NCBI RefSeq assembly: GCF_003590835.1
Contig: NZ_QYUQ01000002.1
Coordinates: 620,001 to 684,000, forward strand
Length of the DNA stretch: 64,000 nucleotides
Direction: 5' to 3'
Source of the DNA: Noviherbaspirillum sedimenti
Lineage (GTDB): Bacteria; Pseudomonadota; Gammaproteobacteria; Burkholderiales; Burkholderiaceae_D
Position numbers and translations under genes: made by a program. Below the pieces are notes generated by a model. It was not told where the DNA came from. It ran no database searches and saw only the letters and a list, made by a program, of their open reading frames with translations. Positions 13,742 to 29,427 of this stretch are shown here, one piece after another; the stretch's first letter is position 1; each line of letters starts with the position of its first letter.

Positions 13742-13881
13742 CGGGAGAATCTGCGGGGCGGTGTGACGCGCAGCGGCGCGCCGGGCCGCAGTGGTTGCGG
13801 TAATACGTCCGCATGAAAAGCGACGAACCCGCGAAGCGGGGAGTACGGATATTTATTTTCGGTTATTTGGGGTTATCTGAA

Positions 13882-15237
13882 ATGCACACCTTGGAACAGC
13901 TACGCACCGGAAAACTGACCGGTACCCAACGCCTGAAACTGGCTTGTAATCTCACCGAATTCCCAAAAGAGATTTTCAACCTCGCCGACACCCTGGAAAT
14001 CCTCGATTTGTCGGGCAATGCCCTGTCTTCGCTACCCGATGACCTGCCACGTTTGCGCAAACTGCGCATCATCTTTTGCTCGGACAACCAGTTCACCGAG
14101 CTCCCCGAAGTCCTGGGTCAGTGTCCGCAGCTGAGCATGATTGGTTTCAAGGCCAACCATATCCAAAAGGTGTCCGCCAAATCGCTACCGGCACAACTGC
14201 GCTGGCTGATCCTGACCGATAACCGGATCGAAGCGCTGCCCGCCGAGATCGGAAACTGCAAGCAACTTCAGAAGCTGATGCTGGCTGGGAATAATTTGCG
14301 GGAATTGCCCGGGGAGTTGTCCGCCTGTTCCCGCCTTGAATTGCTGCGCATCGCTGCAAACCGGCTGACTGAACTTCCCGACTGGCTGCTCTTGCTGCCG
14401 CGTTTGTCATGGCTGGCATATGCAGGCAATCCATTCTGTGAAGAGCGCGAGCTTGCTGCGCTCGCAGATACGCCAATCACGAGTATCTCCTGGGAGGAAT
14501 TGCAGATTCACGACCAGCTGGGAGAGGGCGCATCCGGCGTAATCCACGGCGCGGAACATCGAAATGGTAACGCCACCAGACCTGTCGCCGTCAAGCTGTT
14601 CAAGGGCGAGGTGACCAGCGATGGCTTGCCCCGCTGCGAGATGGCGGCCTGGTTCGCCGCTGGCGAACATCCGAACCTGGTTCCGGTTCAGGGCAAGGTA
14701 CAGGATCACCCGACGGACGTTCATGGCCTGGTCATGCCTTTGATCGATCCTGAATTTCGTAACCTTGCCGGGCCGCCCAGTCTTGAATCCTGCACGCGCG
14801 ATATTTACGCCGCAGGGACGTCTTTCGATCTGGCCTCGGCCCTGAGTATTGCCCAAGGAATTGCCTCAGCGGCAAAGCACCTGCACCGTCGCGGCATCAT
14901 GCACGGCGACTTGTACGGCCACAATATCCTGCATGGCAGCCGGGGACGCGCCTTGCTGGGCGACTTTGGTGCAGCTTCATTATTCGCGCCTGAAACGTTA
15001 CATGCGGATGCGCTGCAGCGGCTAGAAGTGCGCGCTTTCGGTTATCTGCTGGAAGAACTGACCGAGCGATGCGATGGGCCGGCTGCATCCCAGCGCATTC
15101 TGGCGCGCCTGGCAGGCCTGACGGCAGCCTGTCTGAATGAGGAAAACGCATGCCGGCCACTGTTTGAGGATGTCGAGCGAGTTCTGTCCGAACTCGCGGG
15201 ATTGCATCACAATCGCGTGCCTGGCCTCGTCGTTTGA
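13882..15237 (+). CDS. Leucine-rich repeat protein kinase
   Basis: 451 residues joining about seven leucine-rich repeats (~25-190, spaced L..LPxxL..L..L units) to a C-terminal eukaryote-like protein kinase domain. Kinase motifs are intact: glycine loop LGEGASG (213-219), ATP-binding Lys238 in VAVKLF, catalytic loop HGDLYGHN with Asp343 and Asn348, and Asp361 in GDFGAA. The catalytic His-Arg-Asp is His-Gly-Asp, so it is a non-RD kinase. No signal peptide or transmembrane segment is seen, so it is probably cytoplasmic. I chose ATG 13882, where family homology begins; an upstream ATG at 13813 would add 23 unrelated residues. Substrate unknown. Confidence 0.88.
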   Translation: MHTLEQLRTGKLTGTQRLKLACNLTEFPKEIFNLADTLEILDLSGNALSSLPDDLPRLRKLRIIFCSDNQFTELPEVLGQCPQLSMIGFKANHIQKVSAKSLPAQLRWLILTDNRIEALPAEIGNCKQLQKLMLAGNNLRELPGELSACSRLELLRIAANRLTELPDWLLLLPRLSWLAYAGNPFCEERELAALADTPITSISWEELQIHDQLGEGASGVIHGAEHRNGNATRPVAVKLFKGEVTSDGLPRCEMAAWFAAGEHPNLVPVQGKVQDHPTDVHGLVMPLIDPEFRNLAGPPSLESCTRDIYAAGTSFDLASALSIAQGIASAAKHLHRRGIMHGDLYGHNILHGSRGRALLGDFGAASLFAPETLHADALQRLEVRAFGYLLEELTERCDGPAASQRILARLAGLTAACLNEENACRPLFEDVERVLSELAGLHHNRVPGLVV

Positions 15238-18983: not shown

Positions 18984-20424
<1,441 letters not shown>

Positions 20425-20440
20425 GTCGGCGCAGGCAATC

Positions 20441-21271
20441 ATGGAACGACTCGAACATCGCGCCTGTTGCGGCGGCTGGCAGGATGTGTACCGGCATGAT
20501 TCATCCGTGCTGAATTGCACGATGAATTTTGCCGTCTACCTGCCGCCGCAGGCAGCGCAGCAAAAATTGCCGGTGCTGTACTGGCTCTCCGGCCTGACCT
20601 GCAGCGAGCAGAATTTCATCACCAAGGCCGGCGCGCAGCGTTATGCCGCCGAGCACGGCGTGATCCTGGTGGTGCCGGACACCAGTCCGCGCGGCGATGC
20701 GGTGGCCGATGCCGACGCCTATGACCTCGGCAAGGGCGCGGGCTTTTACCTCAATGCCACGCAGGCGCCGTGGGACCGGCATTACCGCATGTACGATTAT
20801 GTGGTGGAGGAATTGCCGGCGCTGGTCGAGGCGCATTTTCCTGTCACGGCGGCGCGCGCCATCAGCGGCCATTCGATGGGCGGTCATGGCGCGCTGGTGA
20901 TTGCGCTGAAAAACCCCGGCCGCTATCGCAGCGTGTCGGCGTTTGCGCCCATCGTCGCGCCGTCGCGGGTGCCGTGGGGCGAGAAGGCTTTCACCGCGTA
21001 CCTGGGTGAGGACCGCGCGGCATGGCAGGCTTATGATGCCAGCGAACTCATCGGCGCAGCGCAGGAACGCCTGCCGCTGCTGATCGACCAGGGCGATGCC
21101 GATGAATTTCTCGACGACCAGCTCAAGCCGCAGCTGTTGCAGGCCGCCGCCGACGCGGCAGTCTATCCGTTGACCCTGCGCCTGCAGCGCGGCTACGACC
21201 ACAGCTATTACTTCATCGCCAGCTTCATCGGCGAGCACATCGCCCATCACGCCAGGGCCTTGCATACCTGA
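20441..21271 (+). CDS. frmB: S-formylglutathione hydrolase
   Basis: A 276-residue alpha/beta hydrolase of the esterase D family. Nucleophile Ser145 lies in GHSMGGHG, the acid is in the [11 protein letters not shown] segment (Asp219 or Asp221) and His254 is in GYDHSYYF. It splits S-formylglutathione into formate and glutathione and completes the pathway started by FrmA. ATG 20441 gives the usual family length; an open upstream extension overlaps frmA. Also called fghA. Confidence 0.95.
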
Positions 21272-21570: not shown

Positions 21571-21603
21571 ATAGTTGACTGGTCGTCTATAATGACCTAT
21601 ATT
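21571..21603 (+). promoter_or_regulatory. Promoter and TetR-type operator of the CoA-ligase operon
   Basis: -35 TTGACT (21575-21580), a 17-bp spacer and -10 TATATT (21598-21603). The 20-bp imperfect palindrome at 21571-21590 (ATAGTTGACT then GGTCGTCTAT) covers the -35. It shares ATAGTTGAC-Y-GGTC with the perfect palindrome before the acuI-like gene, so both are probably bound by the AcuR-like protein encoded in this operon. The region from 21368 to 21570 holds nothing else I can name. Confidence 0.72.
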
Positions 21604-21701
21604 GGTTTCTAAGCAAGGCGGAACAATGCATGGCGGATCGACCTCAGCAGTTGCTTGATATCGCCATCGGTAGTGATTGACAACCTTTTCCGGAGACAAT
21701 A

Positions 21702-23186
21702 GTGCCAGGTAAACTAGGTGTCGCTCTGACTGAAGCGTGCGATAAATTCGCTAATCAAGAGGCAATCTGCGGCGGCCTCGATCCGTTGACCTACTCGGGA
21801 CTTGCCAAGCGGGCGCGAAGAATTGCTGATTTACTGAAGGCTGGAGGGCTTGCTGCAAACGAGCCGGTGCATGTCGCTGTGTCGAACGCATCCCTGGATG
21901 TGGCTGCTTTTCTGGGAGTGTGGCAAGCCGGCGGCGTGGTAGTTCCGCTGCACAGGACTACGCCGGCCGCAGCCGCAGCTAAAATCCAGGCAAAGACACA
22001 GGCTCGCTACCTGGTGGATATGCGCGCAACGGCGTCCGGGGCAGCATCGGAGTTGTCCGAGATCGATTCGGCGCCGCCACCTTTCCGCGAGCAGATGCGG
22101 GATGCCGCATTCGTTATTTTCACTTCCGGATCAACCGGTTCGCCTAAAGGGGTGGTGGTTTCACATAACGCGTTTCATGGCAAGATCGAACAGATCGATC
22201 GCCTGCTCAAATTCCAGGCCGGCGATTCCACCTTGCTGGTACTGAACATCACCTTCAGTTTCGGTATCTGGATCAGTTTGTTGACATTGCTGCGCGGCGG
22301 CAAGCTGGTCATGCTGGAAAAATACGAGCCTGCGCTTTTCCTGCAAACGCTCATCGATCGCCGGATTAAACGTGTCGGCATGGTGCCGACGATGATGCGG
22401 GTGCTGTTTTCCCAGCCGCAGCTTGCGCCGCTAATGGACCAGCTTGTCCACCAGGACAGCTTGCGCCAGGTCTTGATCGGTGGAGAGTCGCTCGGTCATT
22501 CGCTCGCTTCTGCCATTCGACAGCGCTTTTGCGGCACGCAACTGATCGATATCTACGGCTTGACCGAAACCTCTACATGCGACTTCTTTTCCTTTCCCGA
22601 AGATTACGCCAGATATCCCGGCTGTATCGGGCGTCCATCGCCGCAGGTCGCATTTCGCATCGTTGATGGCGATGACACTGAAGTCGATGGCGATGACGTT
22701 GGCGAGTTGCAGATCTCGAGTCCGTACCTGATGAATGGCTATCTCGACGAGCCGGAGTTGAGCGCTGCTGCTTTCTCGGGGCCATGGTTTAAAACCGGCG
22801 ATCTGGCCAGGAGGGTGGCGGGCTCGGTGGTGGAAATCATGGGCCGCAAGAAGGAGTTGATCAGCCGCGGCGGCAACAAGGTGACGCCGGTGGAAATCGA
22901 GCAATTGCTCTGCTCCCATCCTGCTGTCGCAGCAGCCATGGCAATCGGTCTTCCCGATGCCGTATTGGGGGAGCGTATCCATGTCCTGGTGGTGCCGCGC
23001 AATGGTGCTGCTTTCGAGATCAAAGGAATGGAACAATTCCTGAAAGACAAGCTTGAAAAGTTCAAACAGCCTGATGTTTATTATGTCAGAGAAGAATTGC
23101 CGTTAGGCCGCACCGGCAAGGCAGATCGCGGACAACTCAAGTTCATGATCGAATCCGGGCAGGTCACTCCCATCATCACCATCTAA
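21702..23186 (+). CDS. AMP-forming acyl-CoA ligase
   Basis: 494 residues of the ANL adenylating superfamily. Motifs in order: P-loop FTSGSTGSPKGVVVSH, YGLTETST, the TGDLA block, hinge GRKKELISRGGNKVTPVEIE and C-terminal catalytic Lys473 in LGRTGKADR. It should activate a carboxylic acid with ATP and CoA. The substrate is not readable. The setting with enoyl-CoA hydratase, AcuR and AcuI homologs suggests acrylate or another short alpha,beta-unsaturated acid. GTG start with CGGAG 6-10 bases upstream. First gene of a four-gene operon. Confidence 0.88.
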   Translation: MPGKLGVALTEACDKFANQEAICGGLDPLTYSGLAKRARRIADLLKAGGLAANEPVHVAVSNASLDVAAFLGVWQAGGVVVPLHRTTPAAAAAKIQAKTQARYLVDMRATASGAASELSEIDSAPPPFREQMRDAAFVIFTSGSTGSPKGVVVSHNAFHGKIEQIDRLLKFQAGDSTLLVLNITFSFGIWISLLTLLRGGKLVMLEKYEPALFLQTLIDRRIKRVGMVPTMMRVLFSQPQLAPLMDQLVHQDSLRQVLIGGESLGHSLASAIRQRFCGTQLIDIYGLTETSTCDFFSFPEDYARYPGCIGRPSPQVAFRIVDGDDTEVDGDDVGELQISSPYLMNGYLDEPELSAAAFSGPWFKTGDLARRVAGSVVEIMGRKKELISRGGNKVTPVEIEQLLCSHPAVAAAMAIGLPDAVLGERIHVLVVPRNGAAFEIKGMEQFLKDKLEKFKQPDVYYVREELPLGRTGKADRGQLKFMIESGQVTPIITI

Positions 23187-23200
23187 TTGGAACGCATGCC

Positions 23201-24025
23201 ATGAGCGAATTCTCTGCCATCCTGTTCGAGCGCAAAGACAATATTGCACATATCATTCTCAACCGTCCGGAGCGCCTGAATGCTTTGGCGAAGCAAACGC
23301 TGCTTGAGATTAACCAGGCAATGGACAGCGCCGAAGCCGATGAGTCGGTGCGCGTGATCGTCGTCAGTGGCGCCGGGCGGGCATTTTCTTCAGGTTTCGA
23401 TCTCAAGGCGCAAATGGATGCGCGCCCGGAAGGCGCCAAGATATGGCGTGAAATACTCGATCTGGATTTCGATACCACGATGCGCTTCTGGAACAGTCCC
23501 AAGCCGACCATTGCCGCCGTCCATGGCGCGTGTCTGGCCGGCGCATTCGAACTGGCGCTTTCCTGCGATATCACCATTGCTGCCGAAGATGCCCTGTTCG
23601 GCGAGCCTGAGTTGAAGTTCGGCGCCGGTATCGTGACCATGTTATTGCCCTGGATGACAGGGCCGAAACATGCGAAGGACATCATCTTCACCGGCAACGA
23701 CAGAATCAGCGCCGAGGATGCGTTGCGCATGGGTCTGGTCAGCCGCATCGTACCGCAGGGCACCCACGTCGACGCCGCATTCAGGATCGCCCGCGGCATT
23801 GCGCTGATGGATCCGGTGCTGGTTGCCGAGACCAAGAAGGCGCTGAACCAGACCTATGAAATCCAGGGGATGCAAACCGCGCTGAAAATGGCGCTGGATG
23901 TTGACCATACGATCGAATCGCACGGTTCACCGGACAAGCAGGCATTCATGGAAGTGGCACGCGCGCAGGGAATGCGCGCGGCAATCGCCTGGCGTGATGC
24001 CCGCTTCGCACAAGCGCAATCCTGA
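23201..24025 (+). CDS. Enoyl-CoA hydratase/isomerase family protein
   Basis: 274 residues of the crotonase fold. Both catalytic glutamates of true hydratases are kept: Glu117 in GAFELALS and Glu137 in FGEPELKFG. The oxyanion-hole segment [10 protein letters not shown] is present. The likely reaction is hydration of the enoyl-CoA made by the preceding ligase; with acryloyl-CoA this gives 3-hydroxypropionyl-CoA, as AcuH/AcuK-type hydratases do. The gene follows the ligase by 14 bp and overlaps the MFS gene by one base. Confidence 0.88.
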
Positions 24026-25272
24026 TGAAAAGACCGATCGCCATCATTGTCCTGGCGCAGTTGTTCGGCACCTCCTTGTGGTTCAGTGCCAATAGCGCCG
24101 CAGACGACCTGAACCGCTTGTGGGGCTTGTCGTCAACCGACATTGGCTGGCTGACCAATGCCGTGCAGATCGGCTTCATTGCCGGCACGCTGCTATTCGC
24201 TTTCAGCGGTTTGGCTGACCGTTTTGCGGCAAGCAGGATCTTTGTGGTGTGCAGTGTGCTGGGTGCGCTCTTCAACGCGTTGTTTGCCTTGGTCAGCAGC
24301 GGGCTGGAAAGCGCCTTGTGGTTTCGTTTCATGGTGGGGCTCGCGCTGGCAGGAATATATCCACTGGGTATGAAGTTGATCGTCAGCTGGAATCCGGAAA
24401 GCGCCGGTCGCAGCCTCGGGCTGTTGGTTGGTATGCTGACGCTCGGCACCGCGCTGCCGCACGGCATCCGCATGCTGGGCGCCACGCTTTCCTGGCAGTT
24501 CGTAATCCTGATCTCTTCGGCATTGGCCTTGCTGGGGGCCGCGCTCGTCGCCTGGCTCGGCGACGGTCCGCATCTGCGCGCCGGCACCGCGCATGCGGCG
24601 CACCCGAGGATGAATGTCCTCAATGCCTTTCGCGTTCCTGAATTTCGTGCTTCAGCCTTCGGTTATTTCGGCCATATGTGGGAACTGTATGCCTTCTGGA
24701 CGCTGGTGCCCTTGCTCCTGGTGACGGTGGTTGCGGCATCCGGCACATCGTCTTCTCATGCGCTGTCAGGGTGGGCATTTGTCGTTATCGGTGTCGGCGC
24801 CATCGGCTGTATCGGCGGCGGCATCATCAGCCAGCGTATCGGCAGTGCCAGGGTCGCCTGGTGGGCGCTGGCCACGTCCGGCCTTGTTTGCCTGGTCTAT
24901 CCATTGGTGGATGCGCTTTCCGGGGACTGGAAGCTTTTTCTGCTGCTAATCTGGGGCATTGCCGTGGTGGCCGATTCGCCGCAGTTTTCCGCTATGTCGG
25001 TGAAAGCATGTCCGCCCCAACTGATCGGCAGCGCGCTGGCGATCCAGAACAGTATCGGCTTTTTGCTGACCACTTTCTCGATATTGATTGCGACGACAGC
25101 GTATCCGACGATCGGCAGCAAGGTCGCCTGGATATTGCTGCCGGGGCCGATATTGGGGTTGCTGGCGATGCGCCGGCTCCTGCGGCAATCCGCTGCCGCT
25201 ACAATTACGGTACGAAACGGCGTGCCTCGCTCGGATGCGCCGCCTTCGCGGATAACTACTTCGAAAAAATGA
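24025..25272 (+). CDS. MFS transporter
   Basis: 415 residues with about 12 hydrophobic helices, typical of the major facilitator superfamily. The loop after helix 2 reads [10 protein letters not shown], a variant of the MFS G-x-x-x-D-R motif. It starts in the ATGA overlap with the hydratase stop and ends in an ATGA overlap with the regulator, so it is translationally coupled. It probably imports the acid that the ligase activates, although efflux cannot be excluded. Confidence 0.85.
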
Positions 25273-25916
25273 CGGATATGGCCACCAAACCTCCAGCCAA
25301 AACACAGTCGCCGCGTGGCCGGGTCGACAAGCGTGCATTGCTGATTGAAATCGGTACGGCGATTTTTACGCAAAAAGGATTCAGCAGCACCGGCCTTGAC
25401 GAAATCGTGCAGGCAGCTGAAGTGCCAAAGGGATCGTTTTATTACTATTTCCCCAGCAAGGACGAATATGCAATCGAGGTCATCAGGAACTATGCCCAAT
25501 ACTTTGCCAGGAAACTTGAACGCACGCTGGAAGACGACAGCCTGACGCCACTCGAGCGCCTCAAGGCCTTTACCCGCGATGCGGCGTCTGGGGTGCAGCG
25601 CTTCGAGTTCAAGCGCGGATGCCTGATCGGCAATCTTGGCCAGGAAATGGCAAGTATCGAGGAAGAGTTTCGCGTTGTCCTGCTGGAAGTGCTCAGCGAC
25701 TGGCGTAATCGCTTCCGGATTTGCCTCGATGAAGCCAAGGCCATCAAGGAAATCACGACGCAGGTCGATTCTGCAGAGCTGGCCCGTTTTTTCTGGAGCG
25801 CCTGGGAAGGTGCGGTCCTTTGCGCAAAGCTGGAACGTTCGACCGCGCCGCTGGAAAATGTAAGCCGGCTGTTTTTCGAGCAAATGCTGCAGCCTGCAGC
25901 GAAAAATAAAACATAA
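25269..25916 (+). CDS. acuR: TetR-family regulator, AcuR-like
   Basis: 215 residues. The N-terminal TetR helix-turn-helix covers ~20-65 ([29 protein letters not shown] across two stretches), and the C-terminal ligand domain contains [15 protein letters not shown]. This C-terminal signature is shared with regulators annotated AcuR, which control acrylate-metabolism genes next to acuI. ATG 25269 overlaps the MFS stop. Two matching palindromes, at 21571 and 25964, are the likely targets, giving autorepression and control of acuI. Confidence 0.75.
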
Positions 25917-25963
25917 GCGGTAAAACATGCCAGTGCGGTTTTTATTCAGTCGTTTTTTATTCA

Positions 25964-25983
25964 ATAGTTGACCGGTCAACTGA
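25964..25983 (+). promoter_or_regulatory. AcuR-type operator before the acuI-like gene
   Basis: A perfect 16-bp palindrome, AGTTGACC (25966-25973) and GGTCAACT (25974-25981), in the 86-bp gap between regulator and reductase. It matches the operator at 21571-21590. AAAGGA at 25992-25997 serves as ribosome binding site for ATG 26003. The exact -10 is not obvious. Confidence 0.75.
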
Positions 25984-26002
25984 TACCAAGAAAGGAAATA
26001 AC

Positions 26003-26998
26003 ATGTTTCGCGCCATCTACCTGAACAAAACTCCCGAGAACACTACCAGTGCCGAGATCCGGGAAATGCACGACAGCGATCTGCCGCAATTCGAGCGCGG
26101 CGCAGTGACAGTCGCTATCGATTATTCAACCATTAATTACAAGGATGGGCTCGCCATCACGGGCCGTTCGCCTGTAGTGAGGAAGTTTCCCATGGTGCCA
26201 GGCATCGATTTTTGCGGCACCGTGACGGCCAGTGAACACGCCAGCTGGAAGACCGGTGACAAGGTCATTCTGAACGGTTGGGGCGTCGGTGAAGCCCACT
26301 GGGGCGGACTTGCGCAACGCGCCCGGGTCTCGGGCGACTGGCTGGTGCCGCTGCCCGAAGGCTTGTCGTCCCACGATGCCATGGCAATCGGCACTGCCGG
26401 CTATACCGCCATGCTGTCCGTGATGGGCCTGCAAGCCCAGGGTGTGACACCCGGGCATGGCGAAATCCTGGTGACCGGCGCGACCGGCGGCGTCGGTTCG
26501 TTCGCGGTCTCCCTGCTGGCATCGCTCGGTTACCAGGTGGTCGCGTCCACCGGTAAAAAGGACGAAGCAGCGTTCCTGCAAAGCCTTGGCGCTGCCGACA
26601 TCGTCGATCGCGCATCCTTGTCGTCCGCCGGAAAACCATTGCAAAAGGAACGCTGGGCCGGCGTGATCGATACAGTCGGTTCGCACACACTGGCGAATGC
26701 CTGCGCGAGCACGCGTTACGGCGGCGTTGTCACCGCTTGCGGTCTGGCGCAGGGCATGGACCTGCCAATGACGGTGGCCCCGTTCATTTTGCGCGCAGTG
26801 CGCCTGGTCGGTATCGACAGTGTGATGGCGCCGCTCGAAGTGCGGCGCCAGGCATGGGCACGACTGGCGAAGGAATTGCGCCGTGGCGCAATCGAATCGA
26901 TCTCGAAAACCGTGACGCTCGCTGAAGCGCTGCCGGTGGCGCAGCAGATTCTGTCCGGTGCAGTGCGCGGGCGAGTCGTTGTGGACGTCCAGCGCTAG
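26003..26998 (+). CDS. acuI: Acryloyl-CoA reductase (AcuI/YhdH-type MDR)
   Basis: 331 residues, zinc-free medium-chain reductase of the YhdH/AcuI family. Family landmarks include STINYKDGLAITGRSPVVRKF, VPGIDFCGTV, GWGVGEAHWGGLAQRAR and the NADPH loop VTGATGGVGSFAVSLLA. Characterised AcuI enzymes reduce toxic acryloyl-CoA to propionyl-CoA with NADPH. The gene has its own AcuR-type operator and follows the regulator gene directly. YhdH homologs also occur as general defence against acryloyl-CoA, so the enzyme alone does not prove an acrylate growth pathway. Confidence 0.87.
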   Translation: MFRAIYLNKTPENTTSAEIREMHDSDLPQFERGAVTVAIDYSTINYKDGLAITGRSPVVRKFPMVPGIDFCGTVTASEHASWKTGDKVILNGWGVGEAHWGGLAQRARVSGDWLVPLPEGLSSHDAMAIGTAGYTAMLSVMGLQAQGVTPGHGEILVTGATGGVGSFAVSLLASLGYQVVASTGKKDEAAFLQSLGAADIVDRASLSSAGKPLQKERWAGVIDTVGSHTLANACASTRYGGVVTACGLAQGMDLPMTVAPFILRAVRLVGIDSVMAPLEVRRQAWARLAKELRRGAIESISKTVTLAEALPVAQQILSGAVRGRVVVDVQR

Positions 26999-27135
26999 TA
27001 ATTCAAGAAATTTCGCGGCGGGCCCGGACCCGGGGGCCGTCGCGCATTTACGGGATGCACGGCTATATGCATCCACCGGGGCCCTGAAGCAGCTGTTACC
27101 TACCAAGACATACCAAGCCATCAATGGAGACGACA

Positions 27136-28350
27136 ATGCGAACACACATGAAAAAAACGGCGCTGGCAATTTCAACCCTCATGACGCTGGGCTTGGCCAA
27201 TTCGGCGTCGGCACAAATATCTGGAGATGTAGTCAGGATCGGTTTCATCACCGACATTTCCGGGTTTTATTCAGATATGGATGGACAAGGAGGAGTAGAG
27301 GCAATCAAAATGGCCATTGCCGACTTCGGCGGAACGGTCAATGGCAAGAAAATTGAATTCATCTTCGCCGACCATCATAACAAGGCGGATATCGCGGCGA
27401 GCAAGGCCCGCGAATGGATTGATCAGAACGGTGTGGATTTGCTCATCGGCGGTACCAATTCCGGCGCAGTTCTGGCCATGACAAAGGTGGCGGCGGAAAA
27501 GAAGAAACCCATCATCGTCATATCGGCTGGCGCCTCGCGGTTCACGAACGAGGACTGCACACCGTATTCCATTCACTATTCCTACGATACGGTAGCGCTT
27601 GCGAAAGTGGCCGGTTCCGCGATCGTCAAGCAAGGCGGGGATTCATGGTATTTCCTGACTGCCGACTATGCCTTTGGCGCTTCGCTGGAAAAAGATACCT
27701 CCGAAGTGGTCAAGGCAAACGGCGGCATCTCCAAGGGCCAGGTCAAGCACCCGCTGAACGCTTCGGACTTCTCGTCCTTCCTGCTGCAGGCGCAAAACTC
27801 CAAAGCCAAGATCCTGGGCTTGGCCAATTCTGGCGGGGATACCGTCAATGCTGTGAAAGCGGCCAATGAATTCGGTATTACCAAGGGCATGAAACTGGCG
27901 GGATTACTCATGTTCATCACGGACGTACATGCGCTGGGACTCAATCTTACCCAGGACATGTATATCGCCGATCCATGGTACTGGGATATGAATGAAGAAA
28001 GCCGAGCCTGGGCCAAACGTTATTTCGAAAAGACCAAAAAAATGCCGTCATCGACACAGGCCGCCGATTATTCGGCCGTCATGAATTACTTAAATGCGGT
28101 AAAAGCAATCAACACGGATGATGCGGATAAAGTGATGGCACGCATGAAAGAGACCAGAATAAATGACATGTTCGCCAAGGATGGATACATACGTCCCGAT
28201 GGACGCATGGTTCATGAAATGTATCTGATGCAAGTGAAGAAGCCATCAGAGTCGAAATACCCGTGGGATTACTACAAAGTGGTCGCCAAGGTACCTGGTG
28301 AGCAATCGTTCACCACAAAAGCAGAATCCAAATGCCCATTATGGAAATGA
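27136..28350 (+). CDS. Periplasmic substrate-binding protein (Leu/Ile/Val-type ABC transporter)
   Basis: 404 residues. A signal peptide is visible (MRTHMKK, hydrophobic core, cleavage near NSASA|Q), followed by a Peripla_BP_6-type fold starting VVRIGFITDISGFYSDMDGQGG. ATG 27136 has GGAGA at 27126-27130; an ATG at 27124 is less likely. No permease or ATPase genes adjoin, so it is an orphan receptor. It is a paralog of the protein at 59966-61192 (both end in MVH.MYL.QVKKPSESK then SKCPL). The position after acuI suggests a carboxylate ligand, but the two may be unrelated. Confidence 0.88.
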   Translation: MRTHMKKTALAISTLMTLGLANSASAQISGDVVRIGFITDISGFYSDMDGQGGVEAIKMAIADFGGTVNGKKIEFIFADHHNKADIAASKAREWIDQNGVDLLIGGTNSGAVLAMTKVAAEKKKPIIVISAGASRFTNEDCTPYSIHYSYDTVALAKVAGSAIVKQGGDSWYFLTADYAFGASLEKDTSEVVKANGGISKGQVKHPLNASDFSSFLLQAQNSKAKILGLANSGGDTVNAVKAANEFGITKGMKLAGLLMFITDVHALGLNLTQDMYIADPWYWDMNEESRAWAKRYFEKTKKMPSSTQAADYSAVMNYLNAVKAINTDDADKVMARMKETRINDMFAKDGYIRPDGRMVHEMYLMQVKKPSESKYPWDYYKVVAKVPGEQSFTTKAESKCPLWK

Positions 28351-28386
28351 TAATAGGATAGCTTGAGTGTTTCTACGGGGAATCCA

Positions 28387-28420
28387 ACGGGTTACGTGTT
28401 TTACGTAACCCGTTTTGTTT
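28387..28420 (+). terminator. Intrinsic terminator after the binding-protein gene
   Basis: ACGGGTTACGT (28387-28397) pairs with ACGTAACCCGT (28403-28413) as an 11-bp perfect stem with a 5-base loop, followed by TTTGTTT. It closes the unit that begins at the acuI-like gene or at 27136. Confidence 0.88.
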
Positions 28421-28644: not shown

Positions 28645-29427
28645 TCAGCCGCGTGGCGCCTTCAGCAGCCCCAGTTCATGCGCCTTGGCCACCGCGTTGA
28701 CGCGGCTGCGCACGTCCAGCTTCGAAAAAATCTGGTCGATGTGGTATTTGACGTTGAGCTCGGTCAGGTTGAGGATCTTGGCGATTTCCCAGTTGGTCTT
28801 GCCTTCATGCATCCAGTACAGGATTTCGCTTTGCCGCTCGCTCAAGGGCTTGCCGGTCTTGCCGACGAAGGCCTGGAATTCCTGCACGTCGACGATGGCG
28901 CGCGCCAGCGCCAGGTGCAGGTGGGGGGTGATGATTTTCAGCAGGAAGGCGTGTTCCGGCCCAACCTCGCCATCGAGCCGCGAAAAAATGAAATAGCTCG
29001 ATTGTGAGCCGGTCAGATCGATCACGCCATGGCCGATAATGTTACGCATCTTGTACTTGTTGAACAATTCCACCCAGTCGGCGGGAAATTGCTCGTCGTC
29101 GCGTCCGCTCTGGAAAAATACCGGCTCCTGGGCCTCGCGCCATTTCTGCATCAGCGGACTGTTGACGCGGCCATCCGAATTGAGCATTTCGGCGTAATAC
29201 TCGTAGCATTCGAAAGGGCAGTTGAACTGCAGGAACTTGCGTACGAAATTGCCTTGCGGGCTGACGCCGCCGATCCCGCACACCAGCATTTCATGCGGCA
29301 GCACTTCGCGCAGCGGGCCGTTCACCAGGCGCGTGAGGTCGGCTTCATTCCTCACATCCGCACTTTCCAGAATGACGGCGAGGATGCGCTTGTCGAGATC
29401 GCCGCTCAACATCGTGGCTTGTTTCAT
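28645..29427 (-). CDS. LuxR-family regulator, EpsA-like
   Basis: 260 residues. The C-terminal LuxR-type helix-turn-helix (PLSERQSEILYWMHEGKTNW, LNVKYHIDQIFSKLDVRSRVNA) follows an N-terminal ~185-residue domain that resembles EpsA-type regulators linked to exopolysaccharide production in betaproteobacteria. It has no receiver domain and no acyl-homoserine-lactone signature that I can recognise. The start codon overlaps the stop of the upstream HEAT-like gene by four bases, so the two are co-translated. No polysaccharide genes other than galE (32783) are close. Confidence 0.8.
   Translation of the reverse strand: MKQATMLSGDLDKRILAVILESADVRNEADLTRLVNGPLREVLPHEMLVCGIGGVSPQGNFVRKFLQFNCPFECYEYYAEMLNSDGRVNSPLMQKWREAQEPVFFQSGRDDEQFPADWVELFNKYKMRNIIGHGVIDLTGSQSSYFIFSRLDGEVGPEHAFLLKIITPHLHLALARAIVDVQEFQAFVGKTGKPLSERQSEILYWMHEGKTNWEIAKILNLTELNVKYHIDQIFSKLDVRSRVNAVAKAHELGLLKAPRG

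Follow-up and report, generated by a model that had tools for sequence, protein, structure and literature searches.

In a 64,000-nt window of the Noviherbaspirillum sedimenti genome (positions 620,001–684,000 of NZ_QYUQ01000002.1; genome size, 5.04 Mb), genes coding for an AMP-forming acyl-CoA ligase (designated as LIG), a crotonase-fold hydratase/dehydratase (ECH), a major facilitator superfamily (MFS) carrier, a TetR-family repressor (AcuR), and an acryloyl-CoA reductase (AcuI) lie in a row. The cluster is real and coherent and is a variant of the acu/reductive 3-hydroxypropionate (3-HP) kind whose ligase and hydratase score below the cut-off with each of their 25 best-matching named families. 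We consider it somewhat more probable than not that the cluster is a substrate-inducible module for the uptake of a three-carbon acid and its conversion to propionyl-CoA via acryloyl-CoA. Family-level gene identities, two operator-like sites, and the conservation of the set in relatives characterize the cluster.

Conservation was assessed in 23 loci including the window, which were opened via a LIG or ECH match, and in 78 control loci of other AMP-forming ligases. ECH is present in 22 of the 23 loci, LIG in 21, AcuI in 15, MFS in 14, and AcuR in 8, and each cluster gene was found in 0 of the 78 controls. LIG is cut off by a contig end in L121 and swapped for an ADP-forming ligase in L106, and ECH adjoins the ligase in every opened ligase locus except L104. 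The set also includes a like substrate-binding protein (SBP) in 7 loci, a short-chain fatty acid transporter (PF02667) in 6, and a FadR-type GntR regulator in 5; an SBP or a short-chain fatty acid transporter is thus often part of it. An earlier sequence-only reading of this DNA had raised the conservation of the five-gene set across Burkholderiales. Much of the set does occur in other Burkholderiales and in Alphaproteobacteria.

The control ligases are 26–33% identical to LIG and came from a genome-wide ligase alignment that gave 80 loci, two of which were useful (L007 and L008). Control loci have a median length of 17.3 kb versus 18.0 kb, 15 of the 78 are shorter than 12 kb, and many are from other phyla, making the comparison fair though not kinship-matched. 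L104 is included in the 23. Left out of the count were L120 (same genome as L007), L096 (same place as L119), L125 (AcuI of a genus-mate), the short loci L001–L006, L092–L095, L100, and L111–L117 (at the same places as longer counted stretches), L107–L110 (SBP only), and the plasmid records H5–H9, H14, and H16–H18.

The identities of LIG and ECH are correlated across 15 loci (r 0.93), a value that 0 of 2000 permutations reached, host kinship not being removed from this or the following correlations. The identity matrices of LIG, ECH, and MFS gave r 0.85–0.93 (0.85–0.87 for MFS with LIG and ECH), AcuI gave 0.49–0.58 with these three, AcuR lay between (0.62–0.68, 8 loci), and AcuI and AcuR gave 0.81 with each other (8 loci). 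A fair reading of these patterns is that the ligase, the hydratase, and often the carrier would form a core that appears to be joined by an AcuR–AcuI or GntR–AcuI pair.

The five genes named in the sequence-only reading were confirmed at their places by domain or family matches, and the names AcuI and AcuR were borne out by scores above equivalog cut-offs. AcuI scored 517.8 bits with the NCBI equivalog model NF051456 (cut-off 440) and 349 bits with the AcuI structures 5gxe/5gxf in the Protein Data Bank (PDB), while AcuR passed NF051457 narrowly (250.6 bits; cut-off 247). Alignments to 4k29 and 5zai agreed with the earlier reading in that ECH keeps both crotonase catalytic glutamates.

The relations of LIG and ECH to named families were judged by profile and phmmer scores. 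No family reached its cut-off among the best 25 of the 105 NCBIfam families matched by LIG (best 293 against 476, a "long-chain" subfamily) or among the best 25 of the 72 matched by ECH (best 210 against 280), so that neither enzyme grouped clearly with the aromatic or long-chain enzymes that had been named as evidence contrary to an acrylate-type pathway. LIG homologs with 55–80% identity are among the matches listed. The absence of any family above cut-off among those 25 led us to reject LIG as a fatty-acid ligase. PrpE was rejected because TIGR02316 (628 positions) is absent from the same 25 families and LIG has only 494 residues, and the class III CoA-transferase AcuN was rejected because LIG contains only PF00501 and PF13193 and no PF02515. 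Three PrpE-like places elsewhere in the host genome are all under the PrpE cut-off. The closest solved relative of ECH is 4k29 (354 bits). At 118 bits, ECH is about as distant from 5zai, the 3-HP-CoA dehydratase of Metallosphaera, as it is from AcuH, and this identity was rejected. ECH was also rejected as an AcuH: characterized AcuH/AcuK members are 55–79% identical among themselves (PMC5651017, PMC4029986), and ECH scored 113 bits with RdAcuH (5xzd; PMC5651017). In an alignment of 16 LIGs, which left out L104 and the LIGs of L118 and L121–L124, an Asp residue (D294) is present in all 16 and in 0 of 10 outgroup ligases, and the motif TF[SI]FGxW occurs in 15, the exception being L105 (QFSFGQW).

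The two operator-like sites would link the regulator with both parts of the cluster. The 18-bp palindrome TAGWYGACYRGTCRWCTA, searched with up to two mismatches, occurs at just two places in the host genome (G000), both in the cluster, and a reversed-pattern control gave 0 hits; the AcuR regulon may therefore be this cluster alone. Similar palindromes are found at the clusters of relatives, with at least one site inside the cluster in 7 of the 7 cluster-bearing genomes searched, G000 included. In five of these (G008, G054, G096, G112, and G442) the reversed-pattern control also gave 1–9 hits per genome, so that outside G000 and G664 only the in-cluster sites carry weight. The agreement of the relatives' sites with the palindrome is not independent because the pattern was written from sites of the same clusters; the genome-wide rarity of the palindrome in G000 is independent evidence. 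The palindrome from relatives was used because a scan with the Rhodobacter sphaeroides operator TAATAGAC-N6-GTCTATTA (spacer 6) gave no match at the window site. The window operator, TAG-N2-GACYRGTC-N2-CTA, has half-sites similar to those of R. sphaeroides with a centre 2 bp wider. The region contains 3 promoter-like sites against a shuffle mean of 3.7, and the call of the ligase promoter thus rests on its position.

The effector pocket of the regulator is consistent with its identification as AcuR. By spacing, 11 of the 13 pocket residues of Halomonas D47 AcuR (PMC13104084) are matched in the window AcuR, a comparison made with the published residue positions, and the two mismatches are M113 and H116, which are V and F in the window protein. 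Alanine changes at Y82, K86, R120, and W183 weakened acrylate binding by the Halomonas protein (PMC13104084), and these residues correspond to Y78, K82, R116, and W179 with a constant offset of 4. By analogy, acrylate is likely the effector of the window AcuR. The repressor is predicted to act at both operator-like sites and would shut both transcription units until the effector, by homology acrylate, appears.

We propose the following pathway. The MFS carrier, together with SBP here or a short-chain fatty acid transporter in relatives, would import acrylate and/or 3-HP, and LIG would form the CoA ester at the expense of ATP. ECH would interconvert acryloyl-CoA and 3-HP-CoA, acting as a dehydratase if 3-HP is the input; with acrylate as the input, it would hold most of the reactive acryloyl-CoA as 3-HP-CoA. 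AcuI would pull the equilibrium by NADPH-dependent reduction, and the resulting propionyl-CoA can be fed into the methylcitrate cycle. PrpF of this cycle is encoded in the host genome, and prpF lies within 2 kb in L007. As individual enzymes, LIG, ECH, and AcuI would together cover the three activities that propionyl-CoA synthase combines.

The acid, the product of LIG, the direction of ECH, and the import role of the carriers are predictions. Acrylate and 3-HP would be the leading candidates for the acid, and C4 acids and dimethylsulfoniopropionate (DMSP) the lesser ones. Since AcuI acts on acryloyl-CoA directly, a ligase for acrylate would not need ECH. The constancy of ECH fits two reasons, namely, dehydration of 3-HP-CoA or parking of acryloyl-CoA as 3-HP-CoA, and the equilibrium favors 3-HP-CoA over acryloyl-CoA by >50:1 (PMC5663086). 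The sequence-only reading had acryloyl-CoA "either hydrated or reduced" as alternative branches, which we have recast: because the ligase–hydratase pair is the most constant part of the set, the interconversion of 3-HP-CoA and acryloyl-CoA is probably a main step, not an optional branch. For the same reason 3-HP is about as plausible an input as acrylate. The acrylate-type character that the earlier reading gave the cluster is retained, and acrylate as the input shares its place with 3-HP.

Several points weigh against a dedicated three-carbon module. Six loci have LIG and ECH with no AcuI in the stretch (L098, L099, L118, L119, L122, and L124); AcuI is also absent from the stretches of L090, where a contig ends beside ECH, and L104. 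An AcuI-like gene lies elsewhere in G203, G232, and G293, which are genomes of AcuI-less loci; a search of 11 ligase-bearing genomes at E<=1e-60 found one in 10. In L118 and L124, the neighbors of ECH and LIG are TRAP-transporter and MR_MLE genes instead of AcuI, and L122 resembles these loci in layout as judged from its gene sizes; the substrates of LIG and ECH may therefore vary. The ligase on a Streptomyces goshikiensis plasmid (L104:6929–8551) is 39% identical to LIG, as near as the L105 ligase, and is accompanied by none of the other cluster genes in 15.5 kb, which argues that the LIG family also serves elsewhere; five more Streptomyces records with a like ligase lie outside the locus count. 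The equivalog scores have narrow margins: AcuR passes by just 3.6 bits and three of the eight cluster AcuRs (L091, L007, and L101) fall slightly under the AcuR cut-off, the cluster AcuIs of G054, G096, G112, G442, and G664 (428–439 bits; 49–51% identity to the window AcuI) fall slightly under the AcuI cut-off, and the cluster AcuI of L008 is also under the latter (408 bits). In the plasmid locus of Paracoccus denitrificans PD1222 (L106), MFS, ECH, and AcuI are kept and SBP is different (25% identical to the window SBP). The ADP-forming ligase that replaces LIG there matched a 3-HP–CoA ligase best in the PDB (293 bits), ahead of a 4-hydroxybutyrate–CoA ligase (261 bits) and 7cm9 (173 bits), which speaks for 3-HP. 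However, it scored 318.9 with the NCBIfam 3-HP–CoA ligase model, far below the cut-off of 1300, and higher, 327.9, with the acetate–CoA ligase model, so that the support of this locus for 3-HP is weak. Published work on regulation and physiology adds to these points. Halomonas D47 AcuR binds DMSP and acrylate, DMSP more tightly, and does not bind 3-HP (PMC13104084); 3-HP gave no induction in R. sphaeroides, and an AcuR-like protein of Burkholderia ambifaria tested in that host was unresponsive to both acrylate and DMSP (PMC3017554). In the betaproteobacterium Cupriavidus necator H16, 3-HP was reported to be broken down mainly by an oxidative route (PMC6572756), and betaproteobacteria thus do not in general depend on the reductive one.

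The substrate might instead be a 2-enoic or 3-hydroxy acid of greater chain length (crotonate, 3-hydroxybutyrate, methacrylate, or 3-hydroxyisobutyrate), in which case the reductase and ECH would be broader than the AcuI label implies and the product would be butyryl-CoA or isobutyryl-CoA. Enoyl-CoA hydratases often take C4 and longer substrates (PMC5651017, PMC7845616), the PF02667 carrier accompanies the set in six loci, the cluster AcuIs of five genomes and of L008 fall under the cut-off, and the Cupriavidus taiwanensis homolog of SBP is encoded near a 3-hydroxybutyrate dehydrogenase. We nevertheless regard a longer acid as rather unlikely, given that the window AcuI itself is well above the acryloyl-CoA reductase cut-off and that the AcuR pocket residues match those of the acrylate-binding AcuR. 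A role mainly in detoxification, with the MFS carrier exporting acrylate while LIG, ECH, and AcuI clear the remainder without feeding growth, appears less likely still. Use as a carbon source is indicated by a ligase that produces a toxic CoA ester and by the genes for SBP and for short-chain fatty acid and TRAP transporters that relatives carry, even though the MFS carrier might transport in either direction and AcuI homologs protect an Escherichia coli mutant against acrylate (PMC3338564).

LIG and ECH might also act on a 3-substituted propionate other than 3-HP, such as DMSP, with LIG forming DMSP-CoA, ECH eliminating dimethyl sulfide, and AcuI reducing the resulting acryloyl-CoA. The tighter binding of DMSP by Halomonas AcuR (PMC13104084), the near-constant presence of ECH although AcuI could act directly on an acrylate-derived ligase product, and the conservation of D294 in all of the 16 LIGs aligned would fit such a substrate. 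The transporters of relatives are of fatty-acid or organic-acid type, and the Paracoccus substitute ligase is nearer to the 3-HP–CoA ligase than to 7cm9, the DMSP lyase DddX. Crotonase-type enzymes are not known to act as DMSP-CoA lyases. Taken together, we judge DMSP very unlikely. Scarcely less improbable is a broader proposal, in which LIG and ECH are a portable unit that activates 3-substituted propionates (3-HP, perhaps DMSP) and eliminates the substituent to yield acryloyl-CoA, while the accompanying transporters (SBP/ABC, TRAP, short-chain fatty acid carrier, or MFS) and regulators (AcuR or GntR) can be exchanged; if true for DMSP, this unit would constitute a new type of CoA-dependent DMSP lyase. 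The conversion of acrylate or 3-HP to propionyl-CoA via acryloyl-CoA remains our preferred reading.

The coordinates of the cluster are listed below. The sequence-only reading described the first four genes as an overlapping operon, and all are placed as it claimed, but overlaps are present at only two of the three junctions: LIG and ECH are separated by 14 bp, ECH and MFS overlap by 1 nt (TGATG), and MFS and the TetR gene overlap by 4 nt (ATGA), provided that the latter starts at 25269. acuI lies 86 bp beyond acuR, and its own operator-like site ends 20 bp before it.

Features of the cluster (positions are those of the window)
Feature	Position	Strand	Basis
Sigma-70-like predicted promoter, TTGACT-17-TATATT	21575–21603	+	10/12 consensus matches
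AcuR-type operator 1, TAGTTGACTGGTCGTCTA, covering −35 of the ligase-operon promoter	21572–21589	.	palindrome, 0 mismatches
LIG, AMP-forming acyl-CoA ligase, 494 aa, GTG start	21702–23186	+	PF00501 + PF13193
ECH, crotonase-fold hydratase/dehydratase, 274 aa	23201–24025	+	PF00378
MFS carrier, 415 aa	24025–25272	+	PF07690
AcuR, TetR-family repressor, 215 aa (alternative ATG start 25278)	25269–25916	+	NF051457
AcuR-type operator 2, TAGTTGACCGGTCAACTG, upstream of acuI	25965–25982	.	palindrome, 1 mismatch
AcuI/YhdH, NADPH acryloyl-CoA reductase	26003–26998	+	NF051456, PDB 5gxe/5gxf
SBP, HAAT-type (Peripla_BP_6) substrate-binding protein	27124–28350	+	PF13458
Terminator-like hairpin, 13 pairs, 3' of SBP	28386–28414	+	hairpin scan

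The SBP gene begins 125 bp downstream of acuI. The hairpin scan of the region (16 terminator-like sites against a shuffle mean of 8.3) found none between the two genes, which may therefore share a transcript. This SBP is an orphan HAAT-type binding protein, with no ABC permease or ATPase gene among its scanned neighbors; in L123, a like SBP gene is part of a run of ABC-type genes that also contains ECH and LIG. The Skermanella loci L102 and L103 have such a gene just before an MFS gene with no ABC permease annotated beside them, an odd arrangement in which a secondary carrier accompanies a binding protein. That SBP is unrelated to the cluster was considered and judged less likely, since a like SBP recurs in 7 of the 23 loci. 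SBP relatives occur in 320 plasmid records, and the four opened ones lie in other settings.

A scan of 18 proteins of the cluster and its surroundings (9.8–36.6 kb of the window, some open reading frames there and the rest of the genome being outside the scan) found no DMSP-lyase-type domain, and the earlier statement that no DMSP lyase gene is visible holds to this extent. Ten further window proteins in this range have no further CoA-ligase or crotonase domain. Directly upstream of the cluster (19315–21271) are zinc alcohol dehydrogenase and esterase genes, presumably resembling those of glutathione-dependent formaldehyde oxidation. They have no match at E<=1e-20 in 21 other relative loci except for a partial 37% match in L099. 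Elsewhere in the window, 13813–15237 codes for a protein of 474 aa in which leucine-rich repeats precede a protein-kinase domain, an order that recalls plant receptor kinases, and 28645–29427 on the opposite strand codes for a LuxR-type regulator like EpsA of exosortase systems (165.5 bits, below the cut-off of 170).

Among the relatives, L118 (9978–14316), L122, and L124 come from one genus of the same phylum, and the combination of TRAP and enolase-superfamily MR_MLE genes with no AcuI may point to another hydroxy acid as the substrate there; at the cut-off used, the single PDB match of the L118 MR_MLE gene is 3bjs, the name of which gives no substrate. The L104 ligase has aminotransferase and sugar-phosphate isomerase genes as neighbors. 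In L099 (7826–11892), LIG and ECH have a class III CoA-transferase and an acyl-CoA dehydrogenase as neighbors, a make-up reminiscent of the carnitine (cai) operon. AcuI of the Leisingera thetidis plasmid (L105:10475–11456) is unannotated; tblastn matched it as two separate pieces, and the gene may be disrupted. In Cupriavidus P-10 (L101:2920–6420), AcuI is separated from the main set by a second hydratase (37% identical to ECH) and a distant match to the ligase.

The distribution of the cluster is patchy. LIG was found at E<=1e-70 in 6 of 195 sampled genomes of the family, 5 of 399 of the order, and 1 of 369 of the class, the last being the window's own genome, which is counted in all three samples; it was also found in 2 of 249 genomes from the family of G442. 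ECH was found at E<=1e-68 in 3 of 398 genomes from the phylum, again counting the window's own, and in 5 of 18 from the family of G1263. LIG was found in none of the five genus-mates listed, one of which is 87% complete, and one of the five has an AcuI homolog (E<=1e-60; 47% identical). Plasmid copies of the cluster occur in Cupriavidus, Skermanella, and Leisingera, and in Paracoccus with another ligase. This patchiness fits horizontal transfer, by which the cluster may have spread.

The ligase that makes acryloyl-CoA was described in 2012 as "as yet unidentified" (PMC3338564), and PrpE has since been proposed for this role (PMC5651017, PMC13104084); for the reductive 3-HP route of R. sphaeroides, the passages considered do not name the genes that serve its first two steps (PMC12632250). 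In the cluster, a ligase and a hydratase share their predicted repressor with AcuI, and no DMSP lyase was seen in the vicinity; both questions are thereby testable with a few purified proteins. If the proposed pathway is true, acrylate or 3-HP would be valuable enough as a carbon source to merit an exchangeable gene set of its own, apart from the DMSP clusters already known. We did not find the ligase–hydratase–carrier–AcuR–AcuI set described in a literature search by titles and abstract openings, which largely excluded subscription journals. The sequence-only reading regarded the layout as different from known acu–ddd arrangements. This holds for the presence of its own ligase, hydratase, and carrier, but AMP-ligase (PF00501) genes beside acuI have been in print since 2014, when they were reported in three metagenomic clones with acrylate or a similar molecule suggested as the substrate (PMC4029986); the hydratase, carrier, operator, and wider conservation are not described in section 7 of that paper.

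Among known systems, the cluster shares with the ddd/acu system of R. sphaeroides the linkage of AcuR and AcuI and a palindromic operator with GTCTA half-sites over a promoter, and differs in lacking a DMSP-lyase-type domain among the proteins scanned and in having its own ligase, hydratase, and carrier. A purine-rich stretch, aaagga, precedes the ATG of the window acuI, in contrast to the R. sphaeroides transcript, which has no leader at acuR, and a LivK-type gene lies beside some acuR–acuI pairs according to a figure legend (Figure 1) of the same paper (PMC3017554). The proposed route resembles the AcuN–AcuK and PrpE–AcuI pathways in the CoA activation of acrylate followed by hydration or reduction. 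However, LIG is a 494-aa PF00501 ligase, in contrast to the class III CoA-transferase AcuN and the longer PrpE type, and ECH is far from AcuH, to which AcuK is close (PMC5651017, PMC4029986). Reductive 3-HP assimilation in R. sphaeroides (Cereibacter) proceeds through the same three steps, from 3-HP via 3-HP-CoA and acryloyl-CoA to propionyl-CoA with AcuI (PMC12632250), while in the window the ligase and the candidate dehydratase are in one cluster with AcuR and AcuI. The propionyl-CoA synthase of Chloroflexus has the same three activities in sequence as those proposed here, in one multifunctional ligase–hydratase–reductase protein, whereas the window has three separate genes.

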